From Streptomyces sp. NBC_01255 (GTDB lineage: Bacteria; Actinomycetota; Actinomycetes; Streptomycetales; Streptomycetaceae): a DNA stretch of 64,000 nucleotides. A program made the translations under genes and the position numbers. Below the pieces are notes generated by a model. The model ran no database searches, was not told the DNA's origin, and worked only from the letters and a program-made list of their open reading frames with translations. The stretch spans positions 868,001-932,000 of the forward strand of contig NZ_CP108474.1 of assembly GCF_036226445.1 (NCBI RefSeq), given 5' to 3'. Positions 4,901-62,984 of the stretch are shown in pieces. Positions within the stretch are counted from its first letter, which is position 1. Every line of letters starts with the position of its first letter.

Positions 4901-7900
4901 CCTGTCGCGTCGGCAAGGTACGCGGCGAGGGTGCCGTCACCGGCGGGCGTCAGACGTACGCGGACGAGGGAGGCGCCGGTGGCGTGCAGGCGCACTCCCC
5001 GCCATGCGACGACAAGCCGCGCGGACCGGGAACCGGGATGTTCGGCGGAGCCGTGCTGCGCCTCGGACATCGGCTGCGCCCCGGCCGTCGGCAGCGCCGT
5101 GGCCGTCAGCGGCGCCGCGTGCAGGGCCGCGTCCAGGAGGGCGGGGTGCAGGCCGAACTCGCCGGGCAGTGCGCGGTTCCGGCCCGCTTCCGGCAGGTGC
5201 ACCTCGGCGTAGAGGTCGTCGCCGCGCCGCCATGCGGCGCTCACGCCCCGGAAGCCGGGGCCGTAGGCCGGCCCGTCTCCCGCGAGCCGTTCGTAGGCGC
5301 CGTCCAGGTCGACCGCGGTCGCGCCCGCGGGCGGCCAGGTCTCCAGCGCGAAGTCCGGCTCGGAGGCGTCCACGCCGACCTGGCCCCGCGCGGCGAGCTG
5401 CCACGTGACGTCACCGGCCTCGGGCCGGGTGTGGACCGTGACCGTACGCCGTCCCCACTCGTCCGCCGCGCCCACGCCGACCTGCACGCGCAGCCCGGCT
5501 CCGGGGTCCAGCCTCGGCAGCGCCTCGACGGAGAACGCGTCAAGGACGGTGGCGCCGAACTCGTCCCCGGCCCGCACCGCCAGTTCCACGAGGGCGGCCG
5601 GCGGCAGGACGGCCGCCCCGTCCACGACGTGGTCGGCCAGCCACGGGTGGGAGTGCCGGGTGATCCGGCTGGTGAAGAGCGCCTCGTCGCCGTGCGGCCC
5701 CGCGACGGTGACGGCCGCGCCCAGCAGGGGGTGCCCGACGGCGTCCAGGCCCAGGCCCACGGCGTCCGTGGCGGCAGAGGCCGGCTCGTACCAGTACCGG
5801 TCCTGCTGGAAGGCGTACGTCGGCAGGTCGACGCGCCGTGCCCCGGAGCCCGCGAAGACCTCGTCCCAGTCGGGGGCGGCACCCCGCACGTACGCCTCGC
5901 CGGCCGAGGTCCAGAACCGCTCCTGGCCGCCTTCGTCGCGCCGCAGCGTGCCGATCACGACGGCGTCGCGCCCGGCGTCCTCGACGATGTCCTGGATCCC
6001 GGTCACGAGGACCGGATGGGCGCTGGCCTCCACGAAGGTGGCGAAGCCCTGCCCGAGGAGGGCACGGACGGCCCGCTCCAGCTCGACGGTCTGCCGGAGG
6101 TTGCGGTACCAGTATCCGGCGTCCAGTTCGGGCCCCTCGACCCACTCCCCGGTCACGGTGGACAGCATGGGGATCTCGGGTTGACGGGGGGCCACATCCG
6201 CGAGGAGGGACGACAGTTCGTCCTGGAGCAGCTCCACGTACGCCGAGTGCGAGGCGTAGTCGACGGGGACGCGACGGGCCCGTATCCCGTCCGCCCGGGC
6301 GTCCGCGAGGAACTCGTCGAGCGCTTCGTTCTCGCCCGAGACGACGACCGAGCGGGGGCCGTTGACGGCGGCGATCTGGATCCTGCCCTCCCACGGCATG
6401 GTCCGCTCGCGGACCTCCGCGGCGGGAAGGGCCACGGAGACCATGCCGCCCAGACCGGCGAGGACCCGGCCGATCGCCTGGCTGCGCAGGGCCACGACGC
6501 GGGCGCCGTCCCGGAGGGTGAGTGCCCCGGCGACGGTCGCCGCCGCGATCTCGCCCTGCGAGTGTCCGATCACGGCCTCGGGACGCACGCCCCGGGAGCG
6601 CCACAGCTCGGCGAGTGACACCATCACCGCCCACAGGACGGGCTGGACGACGTCGACCCGCTCCAGGCCGGGGGTGCCGTCGGCTCCGCTTCCGTCGGTT
6701 CCGCTTCCGTCGGCTCCGCGTCCGTCGGTTCCGCGCAGGACGTCCTGGAGCGACCAGTCGGTGAACTCGGCCAGCGCCTCGGCGCAGGCGTCGATGCGCG
6801 CCGCGAACTCCGGGGACGTGTCCATGAGGTCCACGGCCATGCCGGCCCACTGCGAGCCCTGGCCGGGGAACAGGAACACGGTCTTGCCGGACCGGCCCGC
6901 GCTCCCCGTCACCAGGCCCGCGGCGGGTTCGCCCTCGGCGAGGGCCGTGAGCCGCGCCAGCCGGGCTTCCCGGTCGGCGCCGACGATCGACGCCCGCTCG
7001 GGGAGCGCGGCCCGGGTCGTCGCGAGCGAGAACGCCACGTCCTGGTCGGTGAGTTCGGGTCGCTCGGCGAGGTGCTCCGCGAGGCGACGCGCCTGATCGC
7101 GCAGGGCGGGGCGGGACTTCGCGGACAGCACCCAGGGCGTGTCCTGCCCGCTCGCCGTCTCCTCCTCCGGGGCGGTGATCGTCTCCGGCACCTCTTCGAG
7201 GATGACGTGGGCGTTGGTGCCGCTGACGCCGAAGGACGAGACCGCGGCGCGGCGCGGACGGTCGAGCTCGGGCCAAGCGAGTTCCTCGGTGAGGAGTTCG
7301 ACGGCGCCCGCGTGCCAGTCGACCACGGGGGTGGGCTCGTCGACGTGGAGCGTCCTCGGCATGGTCCCGTGGCGCATGGCCTGGATCATCTTGATCACGC
7401 CGCCGACGCCGGCAGCGGCGACGGTGTGCCCGATGTTGGATTTGAGCGAGCCGAGGCGCAGCGGCCGGTCGGCGGGGCGGCCCTGCCCGTACGTGGCGAG
7501 GAGTGCCTGCGCCTCGATCGGGTCGCCGAGCCGGGTCGCGGTGCCGTGCGCCTCGACGATGTCGACGTCGGCGGTCGTCAGTCCGGCATCGGCGAGCGCC
7601 CCCTTGACGACCCGTTCCTGGGAAGGGCCGTTGGGGGCGGTCAGGCCGTTGGAGGCACCGTCCTGGTTGACGGCGGAGCCCCGGATCACCGCGAGGACGC
7701 GGTGCCCGTTCCGTCGCGCGTCGGACAGCTTCTCGACCAGGACAAGGCCGACCCCTTCGGACCAGCCGGTGCCGCCCGCCGAGGCGGCGAAGGACCGGCA
7801 ACGGCCGTCGGCGGACAGGCCGTTCTGCCGGGAGAAATCGACGAACCCGCCGGGGTGGCCGTTGACCGTGACACCGCCGGCGACCGCGAGCGCCGACTCG

Positions 7901-11600: not shown

Positions 11601-14600
11601 TCGGCGCGGGCGTCCGGCCTTCGGCCACTCCCGCTCCTCCCTGAGCAGCTCGACCGCTCCCGCCTCCCAATCCACATGCGGCGACGGTTCGTCCACGTGC
11701 AGGGTCCTCGGCAGCACACCATGCCGCATCGACTCGATCATCTTGATCACACCACCGACACCGGCAGCGGCCTGCGTGTGGCCGATGTTCGACTTCAACG
11801 AGCCTAGATAGACAGGCTGTTCCGTCGGTCGGTCCTGGCCGTAGGTCGCCAGCAGCGCCTGCGCCTCGATCGGGTCTCCCAACCGCGTTCCCGTGCCGTG
11901 GGCCTCCACCGCATCGACGTCGGAGGCGGACAGGCCCGCGTTCGCGAGCGCCTGTCGGATCACGCGCTCCTGCGCCGGGCCGTTCGGGGCGGTCAGGCCG
12001 TTCGACGCACCGTCCTGGTTCACGGCCGAACCACGCAGCACGGCCAGGACGCGATGCCCGTTGCGCTCGGCGTCCGACAACCGCTCCACCAGCAGCAGAC
12101 CCACACCCTCGGCCCACCCCGTCCCGTCCGCCGAAGCCGCGAACGGCTTGCAGCGGCCGTCGGTCGAGAGACCGCGCTGCCGGGAGAACTCGACGAACGT
12201 GAGCGGCGAGGACATGACGGTGACACCGCCGGCGAGAGCAAGGTCGCACTCGCCGCGCCGCAGCGCGTGCGCCGCCGTGTGGAGCGCCACCAGCGACGAC
12301 GAGCACGCCGTGTCGACGGTGATCGCGGGCCCTTCGAGGCCGAGCGCGTACGAGACCCGGCCGGAGGCCACACTGCCGGCGATGCCGGCAGCGAGGTAGC
12401 CCTCCAGGTCGTCCGGGACGTTCTGCGCGCCGACGCCGTAGTCGTGGTACATCACGCCCGCGAACACGCCGGTCCGGCTGCCGCGCAGGGTCGCGGGCAC
12501 GATGCCTGCGCTCTCCACGGCCTCCCAGGCGGTCTCCAGGAGGAGGCGCTGCTGCGGGTCGGTGGCGAGCGCCTCGCGCGGGGACATCCCGAAGAACTCC
12601 GCGTCGAACCCGTCCGCCTCGTGAAGGAACCCGCCGTGCCGGACGTACGACGTACCGATCCGCTCCGGATCAGGGTCGTACAGACTCTCCAGATCCCAGC
12701 CACGATTCACCGGGAACTCGCTGATCGCGTCCGTCCCCTCCGCCACCAGCCGCCACAGATCCCCCGGCGACGACACCCCACCCGGATACCGGCAGGCCAT
12801 CCCCACGATCGCGATCGGATCCTCGGCGGCGGTGACGTCACTCGGGGACGCACCCCGCTCGGCCACGGCCTTCACGGCCTTCGCCTGGTCGCCCACATCG
12901 GAGAACTCTCCGAGCAGGTGGGTGGCGAGGGCGGCGGGTGAGGGATGGTCGAAGACGAGCGTGGTCGGCAGCCGAAGCCCGGTGGCGGAGTTGAGACGGT
13001 TACGGAGCTCCACAGCCGTCAGGGAGTCGAAGCCCAGCTCCTGGAACGCCCGCTCCGCCTCCACCGCACCCGGATCCGTATGACCGAGCACGCCGGCGAC
13101 CACACCCCGCACCAGCTCCAGAAGGACCCGCTCGCGCTCGGCACGCTCCAGTCCGGCCAGGCGGTCCGACAGAGCCGAGGATCCGTCCATGGAGGCGGAG
13201 CCGGCTGCGGCGGCCCGGCGCGGTGCCGGCGGCACCAGCCCTCGCAGCATCACCGACAGCAGCTCGCTCCCCTGCGCCCGCAGGGCAGCGGTGTCCATCC
13301 GCGTGACCGCGAGAACCGCGTCGGCCGCACCATCAGCCGTGGCCGAGTCGAAGAGCTCCATCGCGTCCTTCGACTCCAGCGGCAACAGACCCGAACGCGC
13401 CAAGCGCCGCAGATCCGCCTCCCCCAGATGCCCCGACAGCGCACTCGACTCGGCCCACAGCCCCCACGCCAACGACACACCCGGAAGCCCCGACGCCCGC
13501 CGGAACTCCATCAGCGCGTCCAGGAAGGTGTTGCCGGCCGCGTAGTTCGCCTGCCCCGCCGTCCCCAGAAGACCGGCCAGCGACGAATAGACCACGAACG
13601 CGTCCAGCCGCATGTCCTTCGTCAGCTCATGCAGATTCCACACGGCATCGACCTTCGGCCGCAGCACCGCATCCAACCGCTCCGGCGTCAACGCCTCCAC
13701 CGTCGCGTCGTCCGACACACCCGCCGTATGCACCACCGCCGACAACGGGCGTTCAGCAGGAACCGCCGCGACCACCTCTGCCAACGCGGCACGATCCGCC
13801 ACATCAACAGCCGCGAACACCACCTCGGCGCCCGCTGCCTCCAGCTCCTCGGCCAACTCCACAGCCCCGGGCGCCTCCACACCACGTCGACTCAGCAGCA
13901 CCAGGCGACGAGCACCCCGCTCGTGGACGAGATGGCGGGCTACGACCGCACCGAGTGCACCCGTCGCACCGGTGATGAGGACCGTGCCCCGGGCCCAGTC
14001 CACGGGCTCCGCCGCCGGATCGACGTCGGCGCGGACGAGACGCGGCACGAGCACCCGGCCACCCCGCACGGCAGCCTGCTCCACACCCGACGCCACCACG
14101 GCAGGGACGTCCGTCTCCCCCTCCACATCCACCAGAACGACCCGCCCCGGATGCTCGGCCTGCACCGAACGCACCAGACCCCACACACCCGCGTGCACGA
14201 GATCCGACACGCCTTCGCCGTCGACACCCACCGCCCCCCGGGTCACGACCACCAACCGGGACTCGGCTCGCTGCTCGTCAGCCAGGAACTCCTGGACCTT
14301 CGCCAGCACCTCCCCCACGGCACCCCGAGCCGCCTCGGCCAGACCGCTCCCGGCCACCGCACCCGGAGCCAGCACCAGCGACACCGTCTCCGGCCCGCCG
14401 GCACCCTGCCGAGCGCCCGCCGGAACCGGCCGCCACTCCACCCGGAACAACCCGTCCCGCGCAGCACCCGCCGCACGCAACGCCTCCCGCGACAACGGCC
14501 GCAACACCAGCGCATCCACCGACCCCACCAACCCGCCCACGCCATCGGCGAGGGTCAGGGAGACCGAGTCCGGACCGGTCGTCGTCAGGCGGACCCGCAG

Positions 14601-56795: not shown

Positions 56796-58661
56796 GTGGA
56801 CGTCGGCAAGCTGCGCAAGCGCGCAACGGAGCTCCGGTTCACCCCGCGGAAGCCGGTGCGCTGGCTGGCACCGACGGAGCTGTCACGTACGGCGGTCAAG
56901 GTCGGTCTGGCCGCGGTGTTCGCCGACTACGCGGACAAGCGCGAGATACAGGGCGCGCTCCGGGCCGGACTGCTGCAGGCTCCGTTGGCGCATCCCGACG
57001 CCGGGGAGATCTGGATCGACTTCGTCGCCGACCTCGGCGACGGCTTCGAGGCGACGTACTCGGTGGCGTCCGCGCTGGCCGCGCCCGAGCTCGCCGTCTC
57101 CGATGCCGTCTCGTGCCCCCGGGGTTCGCTGCTCGTCCTCGGCGGGGACCAGGTGTATCCGGTGGCCTCGACGACGGCGTACGAGGACCGGCTGAAGGGG
57201 CCCTACCGCGCCGCGCTCCCGTCGGCACCCGACCAGCCGCTCATGGTGGCGCTGCCGGGCAACCACGACTGGTACGACGGACTCACCGCGTTCCTGCGGA
57301 CGTTCGCCCAGGAGAGGTGCATCGGCGGCTGGCAGACCCGGCAGACCCGGAGCTACTTCGCGGTGCGGCTGCCGCGGCGCTGGTGGCTCGTCGGTCTGGA
57401 CAGTCAGCTCGGCTCCTACATCGACGATCCGCAGCGACGGTACTTCGAGACCTGCCTCTCGCCGCGGCTGCTGCCGGGCGACAGCGTGATCGTCTGCTCC
57501 GCCGCGCCGACCTGGATCAAGAGCCACGGGGATCCCGACTCCTTCAACACCCTTCACTGGTTCGACCGGAACTTCATCCGGACCCGGCTCGACCGGGTGA
57601 CCGGGCAGCGCGTGGACACGGGCGCGTCGATCCGCCTCTGGCTGACCGGCGACAAGCACCACTACGCCCGCTACGAGGAACGGCTGCCCGACGACCCGCC
57701 CACGTCCGGCGGAACCCCGCCCACGAACCCCCGACGGCGCCAGATGGTGACGTGCGGCCTGGGCGGCGCGTTCCTGTCCTCCACGCACAGACTGCCGAAC
57801 GCGCTGTCGCTTCCCCCTGCCACGTCGCGGCTGCGGAAGAAGGACGACCCGCCGGCGGCATTCGCCCTCAGCCCGCACACGTACCCCACGGCGCAAGAGT
57901 CCCGCTCGCTCGCCCGGAGGATCGCCAACCCCTTCACGCGGTACTGGCTCGGGTGGCGCAACCCCGGGTTCGCCGGACTGGCCGGGGTGGTGCAGCTGGT
58001 GCTCGTCCTGTTGATGAGTGGCGCGTTCGCGCTGGCCGCAGGGAGACGGCATCCCGTCGACGCCATCCGGAGTGCCGGCGCCTACGACGTGATCGGCATG
58101 GTCGGCGTGTGCGTCTTTCTCTTCATCCTGCCCTTCGTGCTCGGCTGGGGAAGACGACCGGCGGGCGCACGGCCACCGCGGAGAATGACCGGTCCGATCG
58201 TCGCCACGCTGCTGCAACTGGCGGTCGCCGCAGGTGTCCTGGCCGTCACCGTCACCGTGGTCTGGGCGCTGCCACCTTCGTGGTTCGGATTGCTCCGGCT
58301 GGCCATCCCCGTGGCCGTCATCGTGGTGACGGGCGCGTTCCTCGGCTCCGCGGTCTTCGCCCTGTGGGTGCTGTTGACGCACCACGGTCTGGTCGCCGAT
58401 TGGCAAATGTCCGGCCAGTCCGTCGACGACCGCACGGGCTTCGTCCGGATGCACATCGCACCGGACGGCACGCTCACGCTCTACCCGCTGGCACTCCAAG
58501 GCACCTGCCGGGACTGGCGACTCGACGTGGTCGCGGACACCCCGACCTCGTGGGTCCGGCCGGTACCCGGTACGCCGCCGACCGTGCGACTCATCGAAGA
58601 TCCCGTGGTGATCGCACGGCACGGAGGACGAGCGGAGATCAGCCGCGGCCGCGGCGGTTGA
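56796..58661 (+). CDS. Membrane-anchored calcineurin-like metallophosphoesterase
   Basis: This 621-residue protein has a two-metal phosphoesterase domain: D-L-G-D-G-F near residue 77, G-G-D-Q-V-Y-P near 115, G-N-H-D-W-Y-D near 153, and a G-D-K-H-H-Y motif near 285. A C-terminal part with about four hydrophobic helices (about 400-535) anchors it in the membrane, followed by a cytoplasmic tail. It starts at GTG 56796 with GAGGAG five bases upstream, and ends 23 bp inside the convergent ABC permease gene. With the upstream GMC oxidoreductase and patatin-like lipase it forms an operon that could remove acyl and phosphate groups and oxidise a lipid alcohol. That scheme is inference; the substrate is unknown. 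Confidence 0.9.
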   Translation: MDVGKLRKRATELRFTPRKPVRWLAPTELSRTAVKVGLAAVFADYADKREIQGALRAGLLQAPLAHPDAGEIWIDFVADLGDGFEATYSVASALAAPELAVSDAVSCPRGSLLVLGGDQVYPVASTTAYEDRLKGPYRAALPSAPDQPLMVALPGNHDWYDGLTAFLRTFAQERCIGGWQTRQTRSYFAVRLPRRWWLVGLDSQLGSYIDDPQRRYFETCLSPRLLPGDSVIVCSAAPTWIKSHGDPDSFNTLHWFDRNFIRTRLDRVTGQRVDTGASIRLWLTGDKHHYARYEERLPDDPPTSGGTPPTNPRRRQMVTCGLGGAFLSSTHRLPNALSLPPATSRLRKKDDPPAAFALSPHTYPTAQESRSLARRIANPFTRYWLGWRNPGFAGLAGVVQLVLVLLMSGAFALAAGRRHPVDAIRSAGAYDVIGMVGVCVFLFILPFVLGWGRRPAGARPPRRMTGPIVATLLQLAVAAGVLAVTVTVVWALPPSWFGLLRLAIPVAVIVVTGAFLGSAVFALWVLLTHHGLVADWQMSGQSVDDRTGFVRMHIAPDGTLTLYPLALQGTCRDWRLDVVADTPTSWVRPVPGTPPTVRLIEDPVVIARHGGRAEISRGRGG

Positions 58662-59427
58662 ACGCCGCCCTCGCCCAGAGGAAGCCGACCAGGAGGACGC
58701 CGATCAGCCATCCCATGGCGAGGTAGCCGCTGTTGCCGATCTCGCTGCCCATGAGGAGCCCGCGCACCGTGTCGATGACGGGCGTGAAGGGCTGGTACTC
58801 GGCGAACAGGCGCACCGCCGTCGGCATCGAGTCCGTGGGCACGAAGGCGCTGCTGACCAGCGGCAGCAACTGCAGTGGCAGCATGGCGGTGCCGGCGCCG
58901 CCAGGGCTCTTGGCCTGGGCCCCGAAGGCGATCGAGAGCCAGGTCAGAGCGATGCCGAGCAGAGTGAGCACGCCGAACGCGGCGAGCCATTCGACCGGGG
59001 TCGAGGTGGGGCTGAAGCCCATGAGCAGGGCCACCAGGAGGACGAGCGTGACGGTGGCCATCGTGCGGATGGTTCCGCCGATCACATGCCCGGTCAGCAC
59101 CGCGGAGCGCGAGATCGGCATGGTGCGGAATCGTTTGACGATGCCTTCCGTCAGGTCGACGCTCACCATCACCGCCGTGGTCCCGCCGCCGTAGCAGACC
59201 GTGAGCAGGATCATCGAGGGGGCGATGTAGTTCAGATACTCGGTGCGACCCGAACCGCCGCCCATTCCGGCGCCCATGGTGCCGCCGAGAATGTAGACGA
59301 ACATGAGCAGCAGGATGATGGGCGTCACCAGGCTGGAGACCAGCATGACGGGATAACGGATTCCGTGCCGCAGGCTGCGCCGCAGCATGGTCATCGAATC
59401 GGTGACCACGTAGGAGGAGCTGCTCAT
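58639..59427 (-). CDS. ABC-2 type transporter permease (DrrB-like)
   Basis: This 262-residue protein has six hydrophobic helices of an ABC-2 permease; a loop with M-G-A-G-M-G-G-G-S-G-R-T-E-Y lies between the first helices, and the pattern with L-L-M-F-V-Y-I-L-G-G and V-P-T-D-S-M-P is usual for daunorubicin-resistance DrrB-type proteins. It forms an exporter with the ATPase encoded just upstream (ATGA overlap at 59424). Such pairs export drugs or lipids; the substrate is unknown. The gene is 15 kb from the biosynthetic cluster, so a role in exporting the alkaloid is unproven. The 3' end overlaps the convergent metallophosphoesterase gene by 23 bp. Confidence 0.92.
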   Translation of the reverse strand: MSSSSYVVTDSMTMLRRSLRHGIRYPVMLVSSLVTPIILLLMFVYILGGTMGAGMGGGSGRTEYLNYIAPSMILLTVCYGGGTTAVMVSVDLTEGIVKRFRTMPISRSAVLTGHVIGGTIRTMATVTLVLLVALLMGFSPTSTPVEWLAAFGVLTLLGIALTWLSIAFGAQAKSPGGAGTAMLPLQLLPLVSSAFVPTDSMPTAVRLFAEYQPFTPVIDTVRGLLMGSEIGNSGYLAMGWLIGVLLVGFLWARAAFNRRGRG

Positions 59428-60377
59428 CGGGCGGACCCCTTCTGGGCGCTGCTCGGGTCGGTCAGAGCGAGGAACACGTCATCGAGGTCGGGAGAGTGGA
59501 CCGTCAATTCGTCGACCTCGACGGCCACGTCGTCCAGTGTGTCGAGCAGCGTCCGGAGGGAGCGGACACTGCCGTCGGTCGGGACCCTCAGCGCGAGGGA
59601 CTTCTCGTCCCTGGACACGTCGTCGAGGATGCGGGCCGCCGCCTCGAGGTGGCCGGTCTCGGCGAACTGCAGCCGGATGTAGCTTCCCGGGACGCGCCGC
59701 TTGAGTTCCTCGGCGGTGCCCTCGGCGACCAGGCTCCCGTGGTCGAGGACCGCGATGCGGTCGGCGAGCTGGTCCGCCTCTTCCAGGTACTGGGTGGTGA
59801 GGAAGACGGTGACGCCTTCGGCGACCAGGCCGCGGATGATGCCCCACATGGCGTGCCGGCTGCGGGGATCGAGGCCGGTGGTCGGTTCGTCGAGGAAGAT
59901 GATGCGCGGCCTGCCGACCAGCGTCATGGCGAGGTCGAGCCTGCGCCGCATGCCCCCGGAGTAGGTGAGGGCTCCCTTGTCCGCCGCGTCCACCAGGTCG
60001 AACTGCTCCAGCAGTTCGGCGGCTCGACGCCGGCCGCCGCTGCGGCCCAAGTGGTACAGGTCCGCCATCATGATCAGGTTCTCCCTGCCGGTGAGCAGGT
60101 TGTCCACCGCGGAGAACTGACCCGTGACGCCGATGGCCGCCCGGACCTCCGCGGCGTTCCGCGTGATGTCGTGGCCCGCGACGTGTACGTCACCCGCGTC
60201 CGCGTCGGTGAGCGTCGCCAGGATCTCGACGGTCGTCGTCTTGCCGGCTCCGTTGGGGCCGAGGAGCGAGAAGATGGTGCCGGCCGGGATGTCCAGGTCG
60301 ATGCCGTCGAGCACCACCTTGTCTCCGTACGCCTTGCGTAAGCCGGTCGCCTTGATTGCTGCGGGGGGCGTTGTCAC
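59424..60377 (-). CDS. ABC transporter ATP-binding protein (DrrA-like)
   Basis: This 317-residue ATPase has Walker A G-P-N-G-A-G-K-T near residue 38, a Q-loop G-Q-F-S-A, the signature Y-S-G-G-M near 143, Walker B I-I-F-L-D-E-P and the H-like switch T-T-Q. The C-terminal extension (about 235-317) is typical of DrrA exporters. It pairs with the permease encoded downstream, with which it shares an ATGA overlap. The start is GTG 60377 with AAAGGAGGGGA upstream. It follows a DUF4097 gene and a ribbon-helix-helix regulator gene on the same strand, so the four are probably one operon controlled by that regulator. Confidence 0.95.
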   Translation of the reverse strand: MTTPPAAIKATGLRKAYGDKVVLDGIDLDIPAGTIFSLLGPNGAGKTTTVEILATLTDADAGDVHVAGHDITRNAAEVRAAIGVTGQFSAVDNLLTGRENLIMMADLYHLGRSGGRRRAAELLEQFDLVDAADKGALTYSGGMRRRLDLAMTLVGRPRIIFLDEPTTGLDPRSRHAMWGIIRGLVAEGVTVFLTTQYLEEADQLADRIAVLDHGSLVAEGTAEELKRRVPGSYIRLQFAETGHLEAAARILDDVSRDEKSLALRVPTDGSVRSLRTLLDTLDDVAVEVDELTVHSPDLDDVFLALTDPSSAQKGSAR

Positions 60378-60426: not shown

Positions 60427-61290
60427 TCAGGAGTGGTGGATGTCGATCTGGCCGACCAGGGTGCGCAGGTGCAGCCTGACGGTCTCCTCGGACGCCCCGG
60501 GCCCGTCGGTGGAGTTCAGGGCGTTGCTCACCCCGCCCACCAGGGCGTGGGCGTCGACGTACGCCGCCGAGTCCTCGTGGACGCCGACCTCGATCGAGCC
60601 GCGGGCGGTTTCGAGCGTGACCGATCCTCGGGAGACTTCGCTGACGTGGATGTCGCCGTTGGCGTTCTTGATCTCGACGTCACCGTCGGCCCGGCCGACC
60701 GAGACGTCGCCGTTGGTCGCGTTCAGTGTCAGACCGCGTGAGACGTGGCCGACCTTGGTGACGCCGCTGAGGTTCTCGATCGTGGCGGAACCGTCGACGT
60801 CGGCGATACGCAGCTTGCCCTGCGCGACGGTGATGTCGACGTCTCCCAGGACACGCTTGATCGTGACGTTGCCGAGCCCCGCCTCCAGGCGAAGCCCCGC
60901 GGTCTCCTCCAGGCGGATGTCACCGCATCCCGACTCGAAGCGGAAGGAGCCGAGCCGCCCCTGCCCGTCGACGGATCCCACGGCCGCGTCACCCTGCACC
61001 CGGGAGCCGGCCGGCAGGGCGATCGTGATGTGGATCGACTCGTCGCTGGTGGTCTCGACGTTCTTCTGCTTGCCGAAGAGCCTGCGGCGCGGCTTGGGGC
61101 CGCGGATCTGCAACGTGCCGCCGCTGTAGTCGACTTCGGTCTCCTCGGCGGCCCGGCGACTGGCCTCGCTGCCGTTGCTCGGCCGGACCTCCACCACGGT
61201 GTCGGTGCGGTCGTCGGCACGGAGTTCGACGTCTCCGGCGGCGATGCCGATCCGGACGGAGATCGGGTCGGGGGTTTCGAATGTGGGCAT
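60427..61290 (-). CDS. DUF4097 beta-helix family protein
   Basis: This 287-residue protein consists of short repeated strands with V-x-I-x-x-A-x-G-x-V and G-D-V/I-x-I repeats (about residues 100-260), the pattern of DUF4097 proteins predicted to form a right-handed beta-helix. No signal peptide, membrane helix or catalytic motif is visible. The start is ATG 61290 with AAAGG nine bases upstream. Such genes often occur next to ABC exporters and a small DNA-binding protein in streptomycetes, as here. It may be a scaffold or sensor for the exporter; no activity is known. Confidence 0.85.
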   Translation of the reverse strand: MPTFETPDPISVRIGIAAGDVELRADDRTDTVVEVRPSNGSEASRRAAEETEVDYSGGTLQIRGPKPRRRLFGKQKNVETTSDESIHITIALPAGSRVQGDAAVGSVDGQGRLGSFRFESGCGDIRLEETAGLRLEAGLGNVTIKRVLGDVDITVAQGKLRIADVDGSATIENLSGVTKVGHVSRGLTLNATNGDVSVGRADGDVEIKNANGDIHVSEVSRGSVTLETARGSIEVGVHEDSAAYVDAHALVGGVSNALNSTDGPGASEETVRLHLRTLVGQIDIHHS

Positions 61291-61410: not shown

Positions 61411-61911
61411 TCAGCGGGACCAGCCGGAGTAGCCCTGACCGATCCGCAGCTCGCCTCCGGCGCGGGTGCCGCCTACGGCGGCGGTGACGACGCGGGCGAG
61501 CCATGCGTTCGCCGACAGGCCCTCAAGGCCCGCGACTTCGTCGACCAGCAGCTTGACGGACTCGGGAATACGAAGGGTGACACGCGCCATCGCGCCGTCC
61601 CCCGCGGGCGGTCCGGATGTCGGTGCGGCCGGAGCCGAACCGGCGGGTGCGGAGGGCGGGGAATCCTCCACCGGGACCGTGACCCGGAAATCGGGGTTGC
61701 TCCCCCGGAGAACCACGTCCACGGAACCCGGCTTCAGGTCCACGGCGATCTCCTCGGCCGCGGCCGACACCACTTCCAGCAGGGTGAGCCGGATCGCCGA
61801 CTCCAGCGGAATGGCGAACCGCTCAAGAAAGGCCTCTGCCTCCTCCCCTCCCGCTGTACCGGCAGCGGCGACCGCACGATTGAGACTCGCGACAAACGGC
61901 GCCAGATCCAT
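61411..61911 (-). CDS. Ribbon-helix-helix regulator (HicB-antitoxin-like C-terminal domain)
   Basis: This 166-residue protein has an N-terminal helical domain (about residues 1-80), a Pro/Ala-rich linker (about 85-108) and a C-terminal ribbon-helix-helix domain (A-R-V-T-L-R-I-P-E-S-V-K-L-L-V-D-E then a second helix, about 110-150), the fold used by Arc/CopG/HicB regulators. Annotation pipelines commonly call such proteins HicB antitoxins, but no HicA toxin gene is adjacent, so a plain repressor is more likely. It begins at ATG 61911, which overlaps the first of five TGACGTCA palindromes. These proteins bind as dimers to short repeats, so it probably regulates its own operon with DUF4097 and the DrrAB-like exporter. 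Confidence 0.85.
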   Translation of the reverse strand: MDLAPFVASLNRAVAAAGTAGGEEAEAFLERFAIPLESAIRLTLLEVVSAAAEEIAVDLKPGSVDVVLRGSNPDFRVTVPVEDSPPSAPAGSAPAAPTSGPPAGDGAMARVTLRIPESVKLLVDEVAGLEGLSANAWLARVVTAAVGGTRAGGELRIGQGYSGWSR

Positions 61912-62003
61912 GACGTCACCGTAGCGTCATGAGTGACGTCACTACAAGCGGCGATGACGTCACATCCATCGATCTGACGTCACCCTCGACCCGGCTGACG
62001 TCA
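61911..62003 (-). promoter_or_regulatory. Array of five TGACGTCA palindromes, operator of the exporter operon
   Basis: The 8-bp palindrome TGACGTCA occurs at 61911, 61934, 61955, 61975 and 61996, with start spacings of 23, 21, 20 and 21 bp, about two helical turns. The array fills the space between the pirin stop and the ribbon-helix-helix start codon, with the first copy on the ATG. On the minus strand a TTGTAG/TACGGT promoter with an 18-bp spacer overlaps the second copy, and its -10 lies 6 bp from the ATG, so the transcript may be leaderless. Confidence 0.85.
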
Positions 62004-62018
62004 CCCGCACGCCACGGG

Positions 62019-62984
62019 TCAGCGCACGCGCCCGCGGGCCTTCAGCTGGGTCGCCGGGAGCTCCGGGGCCGGAAGGCGGTCGCCGTCGTAGCCCTTCACC
62101 TCGCCGAAGCGGCCGCTGTCCACCCAGGCCTCGCGGGCCTCGCGGATCTCCTCGTCCGTGCGGCCGATGAAGTTCCACCACATGACGATCTCCTCCTCGA
62201 ACGGTTCACCGCCGAGGAGCATCAGGCCCGCGTCCGACAGGGCGCGCAGGGGCAGCTCGGTGCGGCCGCAGCCGAGGTACAGCATGGAGCCGGGCAGGAC
62301 CGGTACGCCGTCGACGTGGGCCTCGCCCGACATGGCCAGGACCGCGTACTCGAAGTCGGGCTCCAGCGGGAGGCTCGTCTCGGTGCCCGCCGTCAGCGTG
62401 AGGTCGGCTCCGACGAGCGGCGAGTACGTGGTGCCGGGCGAGGTGGCGCCGTCGAGGGCCCCGAGGATCACGGTGGCCGTGAGACCGGGGGCCGTGACCC
62501 GGGGCAGGTCGGCGTGGTGCTGGAAGTGGGGCTCCACGTGGCGGTGGGCGTCGGGGAGCGCGACCCAGAGCTGTGCGCCGTGGAGGAAGCGGGCGTGCGG
62601 GCGGGGGCTCTCCTCGGAGTGGGAGATCGCCCGGCCCGAGGTCATCAGGCCCAGCTCACGCGGGCGGACCGTCTGGAGGCTGCCGGTGGAGTCGCGGTGC
62701 AGGACCTCGCCCTCGTGGAGCCAGCTCACGGTCTGCAGCCCCATGTGCGGGTGGGGCGGGACCTGCATGCCGGGCTCGTCGGCGATGTCGTCGGGGCCGT
62801 AGTGGTCGACGAACGCCCAGGCGCCGACCATCCGCCGGCCGAGGTTCGGGAGCAGTCGGCGGACCTCGGTCGACTCCCCGAGCTGGACGCGCCGCGGGCT
62901 GAGGAGCTCTCGTACGGGCTCGGCGACGACGAAGCCGCGGCCACCGCACACCGTCAACGCGGCCTGACGATCAAGATTGCTCAT
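62019..62984 (-). CDS. Pirin family protein
   Basis: This protein of about 321 residues has two cupin domains. The N-terminal domain carries P-H-P-H-M-G-L-Q-T-V with the two His that hold the metal, and the following H-S-E-E motif with the third His and a Glu ligand, as in bacterial pirins and quercetinases. Pirins bind iron and can act as redox sensors or dioxygenases. The start is ATG 62984; a TTG nine bases upstream is a weaker alternative. An inverted repeat 17 bp upstream is a candidate operator. It is unrelated to the adjacent operon. Confidence 0.95.
   Translation of the reverse strand: MSNLDRQAALTVCGGRGFVVAEPVRELLSPRRVQLGESTEVRRLLPNLGRRMVGAWAFVDHYGPDDIADEPGMQVPPHPHMGLQTVSWLHEGEVLHRDSTGSLQTVRPRELGLMTSGRAISHSEESPRPHARFLHGAQLWVALPDAHRHVEPHFQHHADLPRVTAPGLTATVILGALDGATSPGTTYSPLVGADLTLTAGTETSLPLEPDFEYAVLAMSGEAHVDGVPVLPGSMLYLGCGRTELPLRALSDAGLMLLGGEPFEEEIVMWWNFIGRTDEEIREAREAWVDSGRFGEVKGYDGDRLPAPELPATQLKARGRVR

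Follow-up and report, generated by a model that had tools for sequence, protein, structure and literature searches.

A gene for a ribbon-helix-helix (RHH) protein, rhh, is preceded in the window (the whole stretch of 64,000 nucleotides of DNA that was analysed) by an array of 8-bp palindromes. Comparison with homologous loci makes it very probable that these palindromes are operators of the adjacent RHH protein, which would act as an autorepressor over a leaderless promoter, with residue 112 of the protein setting the spelling of the operators. There is also a reasonable likelihood that the same description holds for a widespread group of actinobacterial autorepressors, in which the −10 element is made from two operator ends, the transcript is leaderless, the operators follow a two-letter code of Asn and Thr (perhaps also Ser), and paralogues are orthogonal. 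The mechanism is a variant of known RHH autorepression. The original prediction had described an array of five palindromes; what is added here is a sixth site, a probable leaderless promoter built from operators, conservation in much of the class and a proposed one-residue code.

Gene Content and Spread of the Operon

The array lies in front of an operon of four genes:

61411..61911, minus strand: rhh, a 166-aa RHH protein and proposed autorepressor; open reading frame with a predicted N-terminal helical and β-hairpin domain, a linker and a C-terminal RHH domain

60427..61290, minus strand: DUF4097 (Toastrack) protein, the conserved partner gene (PF13349, E 2.2e-14)

59424..60377, minus strand: DrrA-like ABC transporter ATPase (TIGR01188, 332.2 bits, above the cut-off of 312.45)

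58639..59427, minus strand: ABC-2 type permease (PF01061, E 1.2e-20; TIGR01247 drrB, 62.3 bits, below the cut-off of 223.05)

The predicted gene order, RHH-DUF4097-ATPase-permease, is borne out by the open reading frames, and for the last three genes by Pfam and NCBIfam models. Measured against DrrAB-type exporters, the ATPase qualifies as DrrA-like, and the permease falls below the drrB cut-off and is an ABC-2 permease by Pfam. A pirin gene lies upstream of rhh on the same (minus) strand, with its end at 62019; the stretches compared around eight homologous operons yielded no pirin. All four genes of the operon were present in 8 of the 8 longer homologous stretches that were compared first, one of which is a paralogue in the same genome.

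At E up to 0.001, 189 of 295 genomes from Streptomyces, the genus to which the window belongs, contain a relative of rhh; if weak matches to the RHH part alone are included, so do 109 of 296 genomes from the class and 59 of 296 from the phylum. Merging of identical proteins gave 123 distinct loci. The gene next after rhh codes for DUF4097 in 58 of the 63 loci with at least 4 kb of downstream sequence and in 58 of the 60 shorter ones, whereas an ATPase together with a permease could be recognised in 18 of the 63. It thus follows that RHH and DUF4097 form a conserved pair and that the transporter is optional. The original view of the operon as an exporter operon fits the window, where ATPase and permease are both present; in the homologues, the conserved partner is DUF4097.

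An actinobacterial operon of Toastrack (DUF4097), ABC ATPase and permease genes with an RHH transcription factor is mentioned in a PSP survey (PMC11237479) and is very likely of the same type as the one studied here. The passages of the survey that concern it deal with gene neighbourhood alone; operators, promoter and specificity are absent from them. The earlier statement that no description was known therefore needs to be narrowed: the operon type was already in print, and for these operators and the residue code no description was found in the open-access literature, outside which most subscription journals lie. Two DUF4097 proteins of unknown function are reported in the lunaemycin gene cluster, one after a 177-aa hypothetical protein and the other after a DrrA-type ATPase (PMC9866976); these proteins may belong to the RHH-DUF4097 module.

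Identity and Predicted Fold of the RHH Protein

No Pfam or NCBIfam model matched the RHH protein of the window. Its assignment, which bears out the original one, rests on its relatives, on matches of the family profile to solved structures and on the predicted fold, which has the strand-helix-helix domain of RHH proteins. A first AF2 model made from 13 sequences (mean pLDDT 53.8) was too poor for use; the model used here has a mean pLDDT of 81. Foldseek gave no match with E < 0.2, and MetJ is absent among the 50 listed matches of the predicted-fold comparison, which excludes nothing. With alignment A1, sequence matches in the PDB to TAL effectors arose from many weak repeat matches, none significant as a stretch, and were discarded; with the deeper alignment A3, RHH proteins were matched.

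The relatives are named in databases as hypothetical protein, HicB family antitoxin (several of them) or histidine kinase, and the latter two names look wrong. At E up to 0.1, the Pfam HicB model recognises 95 of 96 family members. However, in the window no toxin gene adjoins rhh, whose neighbours are pirin and DUF4097, and a toxin-antitoxin role was rejected for want of it.

The part of the protein predicted to read DNA is the strand of the RHH domain:

61564..61587, minus strand: strand ARVTLRIP, residues 109-116, predicted to contact DNA; aligned with Arc PQFNLRWP, with T112, the proposed specificity residue, opposite N11

Residues R110, T112 and R114 align with Q9, N11 and R13 of the Arc strand of phage P22, which contact bases (PMC12645479). 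Alternate polar residues of this kind agree with base contact by RHH strands, and such contact is predicted here. The Arc operator consists of TAGA boxes, unlike the palindromes in the window (PMC12645479). The strand follows the pattern R-x-[N/T/S]-x-R, and both Arg are invariant in the 96 sequences. As with RHH autorepressors that have operator arrays (Arc, MetJ and CopG type), the operators here lie over the protein's own promoter. To our knowledge, Arc has no N-terminal domain, no DUF4097 partner and no Asn/Thr pair of operator spellings.

The Proposed Operator Array in the Window

Five exact TGACGTCA palindromes occupy the 107-bp gap between pirin and rhh (range 61911-62003). They start at 61911, 61934, 61955, 61975 and 61996, with start-to-start spacings of 23, 21, 20 and 21 bp; the number of palindromes and the 20-23-bp spacing are thus as first described, and so is the overlap with the RHH start codon, since on the minus strand the last A of the copy at 61911 is the A of the ATG (61911). 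A weight matrix built from Thr-type sites (see below) revealed a degenerate sixth site, TGACGCTA, at 61922-61929. It is in register with the array and scores 3.9 bits, compared to −6.4 bits for the next best word, and the same TGACGCTA is found at the equivalent place in three other loci (L051, L052 and L083). Relative to the start codon, the sites are:

61911..61918, minus strand: operator at −7, TGACGTCA; first T falls at −7 within the −10 box, last A is the start-codon A; site at this offset in 154/206 homologues

61922..61929, minus strand: degenerate operator at −18, TGACGCTA; last A falls at −11 within the −10 box; site at −18/−19 in 158/206 homologues

61934..61941, minus strand: operator at −30, TGACGTCA; site at −29/−30 in 146/206 homologues

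61955..61962, minus strand: operator at −51, TGACGTCA; homologues have recurrent sites near −50

61975..61982, minus strand: operator at −71, exact copy of TGACGTCA

61996..62003, minus strand: operator at −92, exact copy of TGACGTCA

The window contains 7 copies of TGACGTCA, compared to a mean of 0.98 and a largest value of 4 in 100 dinucleotide shuffles. There are 92 copies in the whole 8.57-Mb genome (12 for a control pattern), and a Poisson estimate at this rate yields ca. 3e-12 expected clusters of five equally tight copies per genome. No other pair of TGACGTCA copies with starts 10-25 bp apart is present in the genome. The two remaining copies in the window, at 5406-5413 and 12833-12840, are isolated.

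That some regulator other than the adjacent RHH protein reads the palindromes is very improbable. Nothing specific speaks for it; of the 92 genomic copies, the context was inspected for the array and the two isolated window copies. Clustered copies occur in this genome at this operon only, and the operator spelling varies with a residue of the protein encoded next to the array (see below).

Triples of TGACGTCA were also seen in three other Streptomyces genomes (G248, G352 and G205, at L053:6375-6453, L054:6548-6599 and L055:6060-6107). Six query proteins of this locus gave no match around these triples, and in two of the three genomes the spacers are identical. Such repeats speak for a neutral tandem-repeat expansion with no regulatory role, but for the window this explanation is scarcely credible: the spacers of the window array are unlike each other and homologues keep the sites at fixed offsets, and a tandem-repeat artefact was rejected on these grounds. 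A replication role was likewise rejected, for the array is flanked by pirin and rhh on an 8.4-Mb contig and no replication initiator gene lies beside the repeats. The label "iteron" in the original prediction is misleading, because the neighbours of the array are the pirin gene and the operon itself.

Conservation of the Sites in Homologues

For comparison of upstream regions, homologous loci were merged to 207, five partial loci being dropped, and removal of L195, which is without the RHH strand, left 206 distinct genes. Loci with a match weaker than E 1e-6 were not entered and 17 loci fetched for other purposes were left out; the places of rhh used from the same genus comprise 30 loci (the window's own among them) and 20 fetched later.

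The −110..+1 regions of the 206 genes contain 643 sites matching TG[AG]nn[CT]CA (TGRnnYCA). Control searches found 57 sites in −300..−190 of 205 genes and 24 in intragenic sequence of comparable length, and two scrambled patterns gave 10 and 6 sites in the same comparison. Of the 206 genes, 172 have a site at two or more of the proximal positions (−7, −18/−19 and −29/−30) and 88 have one at all three. A search of homologous operons for the array, which had been suggested at the outset, thus revealed recurrent sites at the same offsets, with all three proximal positions empty in 8 genes alone. The distance between neighbouring sites is 11 bp in 236 cases and 20-23 bp in 106, and the 180 sites upstream of −40 are phased with the helix, with a best period of 10.8 bp and a vector length of 0.80. 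Conservation of the array extends over much of the class. In many Streptomyces loci of the Asn type (L006-L034), a second cluster of TGGYRCCA-like sites lies further upstream, between ca. −120 and −200 relative to the start codon.

The positions of the sites and their conservation are evident from the sequences as such; from them we infer binding and its cooperativity. In the proposed mechanism, each 8-bp palindrome (TGRnnYCA) would receive the two-stranded sheet of one RHH dimer. Dimers on neighbouring sites, at a distance of one or two helical turns, would lie on the same side of the DNA and bind together. Dimers of the RHH protein MetJ are described as binding 8-bp palindromes, with at least two adjacent sites required for repression (PMC3228920). 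The metbox matrix has the consensus A-G-A-C per half, and a GACGTC core is common to it and to TGACGTCA (PMC3228920); the Met boxes of MetJ are adjacent, whereas the sites here are one or two turns apart. At E up to 0.1, the 96 members between them match 23 Pfam families, and MetJ is not one of these.

A Probable Leaderless Promoter Built from Operators

Two promoter elements are predicted within the array:

61918..61923, minus strand: predicted −10 element TACGGT, −12 to −7, where the operators at −18 and −7 meet; ends 6 bp before the ATG

61942..61947, minus strand: predicted −35 element TTGTAG, separated by 18 bp from the −10 element; TTG at −36/−35 in homologues

The −10 element thus ends where the original prediction had put it. 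Since a σ70 consensus scan of 61800-62100 called no promoter, the promoter call rests on conservation in homologues. When the 206 genes were aligned on the start codon, A at −11 occurred together with T at −7 in 186 of them; shifted controls gave 0-17 at shifts of 1-3 bp, 108 at the −11 shift and 8 at −22. TTG is found at −36 or −35 in 184/206. The −18 operator ends at −11 and the next one starts at −7, so that the −10 hexamer spans the boundary between two operators; in most of the homologues, sites extend over both the start codon and the conserved −10 position.

With the −35/−10 pair of the homologues, the predicted start of transcription is the A of the ATG. Words resembling a Shine-Dalgarno sequence at −18..−4 are present in 4 of 206 genes, compared to 20-27 in four control windows. 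The transcript is probably leaderless, as had been suggested; both the geometry of the promoter and the rarity of Shine-Dalgarno-like words point this way. Among 37 held-out genes (see below), the promoter signature (A at −11 and T at −7) was present in 26, that is, in 19 of 20 from the same genus and in 7 of 17 from other genomes, so the signature fades in distant members.

In the mechanism that we propose, bound dimers would cover the leaderless promoter, whose −10 box would take its A at −11 from the last base of one operator and its T at −7 from the first base of the next. Since these bases would be shared, the repressor and RNA polymerase would compete and the operon would repress itself. 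Repression is what we infer from this arrangement, and autoregulation is a working model; the other part of the original claim, that the array is read by the operon's own RHH protein, draws support from the recurrent offsets in homologues and from the spelling that follows a residue of the RHH strand. As a guess, a derepression signal could act through DUF4097 or the N-terminal domain.

One can also imagine that the RHH protein is an activator, or that it activates from distal sites and represses from proximal ones. Sites beyond −40 are present in 122 of the 206 loci, and some RHH proteins, such as AmrZ, both activate and repress (PMC3325190). The most conserved sites, however, overlap the −10 box and the start codon, where bound protein should block polymerase, and activation is accordingly considered improbable. 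AmrZ reads GGC half-sites at its own promoter with residues K18, V20 and R22 of its RHH strand (PMC3325190); it comes from another group of organisms and its half-site differs from that found here. Simple autorepression, which we prefer, offers for the RHH-Toastrack module (its members are annotated as hypothetical protein, HicB antitoxin or histidine kinase) a precise model of a leaderless promoter made from repressor sites.

Residue 112 and the Spelling of the Operators

The sequences associate residue 112 with the spelling of the operators, which suggests that Asn goes with TGGYRCCA and Thr with TGACGTCA. In the 87 genes with Asn, 180 of 273 sites are G..C and 12 are A..T; in the 81 genes with Thr, 159 of 265 are A..T and 3 are G..C; and in the 38 genes with Ser, 45 of 105 are A..T and 12 are G..C, the rest being hybrids in each case. 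When each gene was assigned by its majority, Asn genes gave 78 G, 8 ties and 1 A, Thr genes gave 68 A, 13 ties (3 of them without sites) and no G, and Ser genes gave 23 A, 11 ties and 4 G. Exceptions include L228 (Asn), which leans to A, and L069 (Thr), which has a G..C site. The residue is Thr in the window's protein, whereas most of the Streptomyces copies inspected have Asn. According to the mechanism, residue 112 would set the third base pair of the half-site, with Thr specifying A and Asn specifying G; Ser would be mixed, leaning to A.

The rule that Asn means a G majority and Thr an A majority, with a tie counted as a miss, was fixed before held-out loci were fetched. Out of 44 such loci, 37 were used; two were already in the set and five were partial, had no start or had too little upstream sequence. 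The rule was correct for 28 of 29 scored genes (Asn 25/25; Thr 3/4, with one tie). Outside the score were six genes with fewer than two half-sites (1 Asn, 5 Thr), one with Ser and one with Ala. The nine held-out Thr genes thus divide into three that agree with the rule, one tie and five below the limit of two half-sites. As 20 of the 37 genes come from the same genus and are all Asn, the test bears mostly on the Asn half of the rule.

Among 155 columns of the protein alignment, position 112 was the best predictor of the operator (leave-one-out R2 0.704; 201 genes with at least two half-sites). The next best column, with R2 0.527, was position 28, which lies outside the RHH domain. A predictive position of this kind is one ground for considering that the RHH protein binds the array but that residue 112 is a lineage marker, the spelling being set by other residues or coevolved backgrounds. 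The tree is another: it yielded five independent Asn/Thr pairs, one of them on well-supported branches (four and one in another run), and with so few pairs no significance is reachable and shared descent could explain part of the association. We nevertheless consider a mere lineage marker unlikely, since position 112 is both the best column and the one aligned with the base-contacting N11 of Arc. Moreover, in 25 greedily chosen closest pairs of an Asn gene with a Thr or Ser gene, the Asn member was richer in G in 25/25. The paralogues described below argue in the same direction.

For relaxosome proteins of the SmpO type, one residue in the N-terminal region of the RHH protein (position 7) was found by experiment to switch DNA specificity (PMC8136818). 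Those proteins are conjugation factors acting at oriT with residues F/K, while the system described here is a proposed autorepressor with Asn/Thr (PMC8136818). The homologues offer hundreds of natural protein-operator pairs for one DNA-reading fold, together with a one-residue rule.

A distant relative, L288, has Ala at 112 (strand ARFALRLS) and carries TGATATCA at −29 and −18, perhaps a further operator spelling. Four loci with the strand VRFSLRLPKW (L247, L249, L263 and L266) have mixed spellings, and the genome G790 has two copies ca. 7 kb apart.

Paralogous Operons Within One Genome

The genome of the window (G000) has a second RHH-DUF4097-ABC operon, of the Asn type, at G000:C1:7864703-7865236 (L045:6704-7237), with TGGCGCCA/TGGTGCCA sites in front of it. 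The half-sites of the window's Thr copy comprise 10 A and 0 G, and those of the Asn paralogue 0 A and 6 G. An exact TGGCGCCA followed by TGGTGCCA within 25 bp occurs once in the genome, at the Asn paralogue.

Twelve genomes with both Asn and Thr types, G000 among them, were picked by hand from listings, both types having been fetched. The Asn copy had the higher fraction of G in 11 of the 12, so that Asn and Thr copies that share a genome differ as the residue rule predicts, which speaks against residue 112 as a lineage marker. In the exception, G775, the Asn copy is L228, which leans to A, and one Thr copy ties; the Thr copy of G620 also ties.

If residue 112 sets the spelling as proposed, it would keep paralogous operons of one genome insulated and explain how cross-talk between similar operons is avoided. 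Orthogonal autorepressors of this kind would be useful parts for Streptomyces work.
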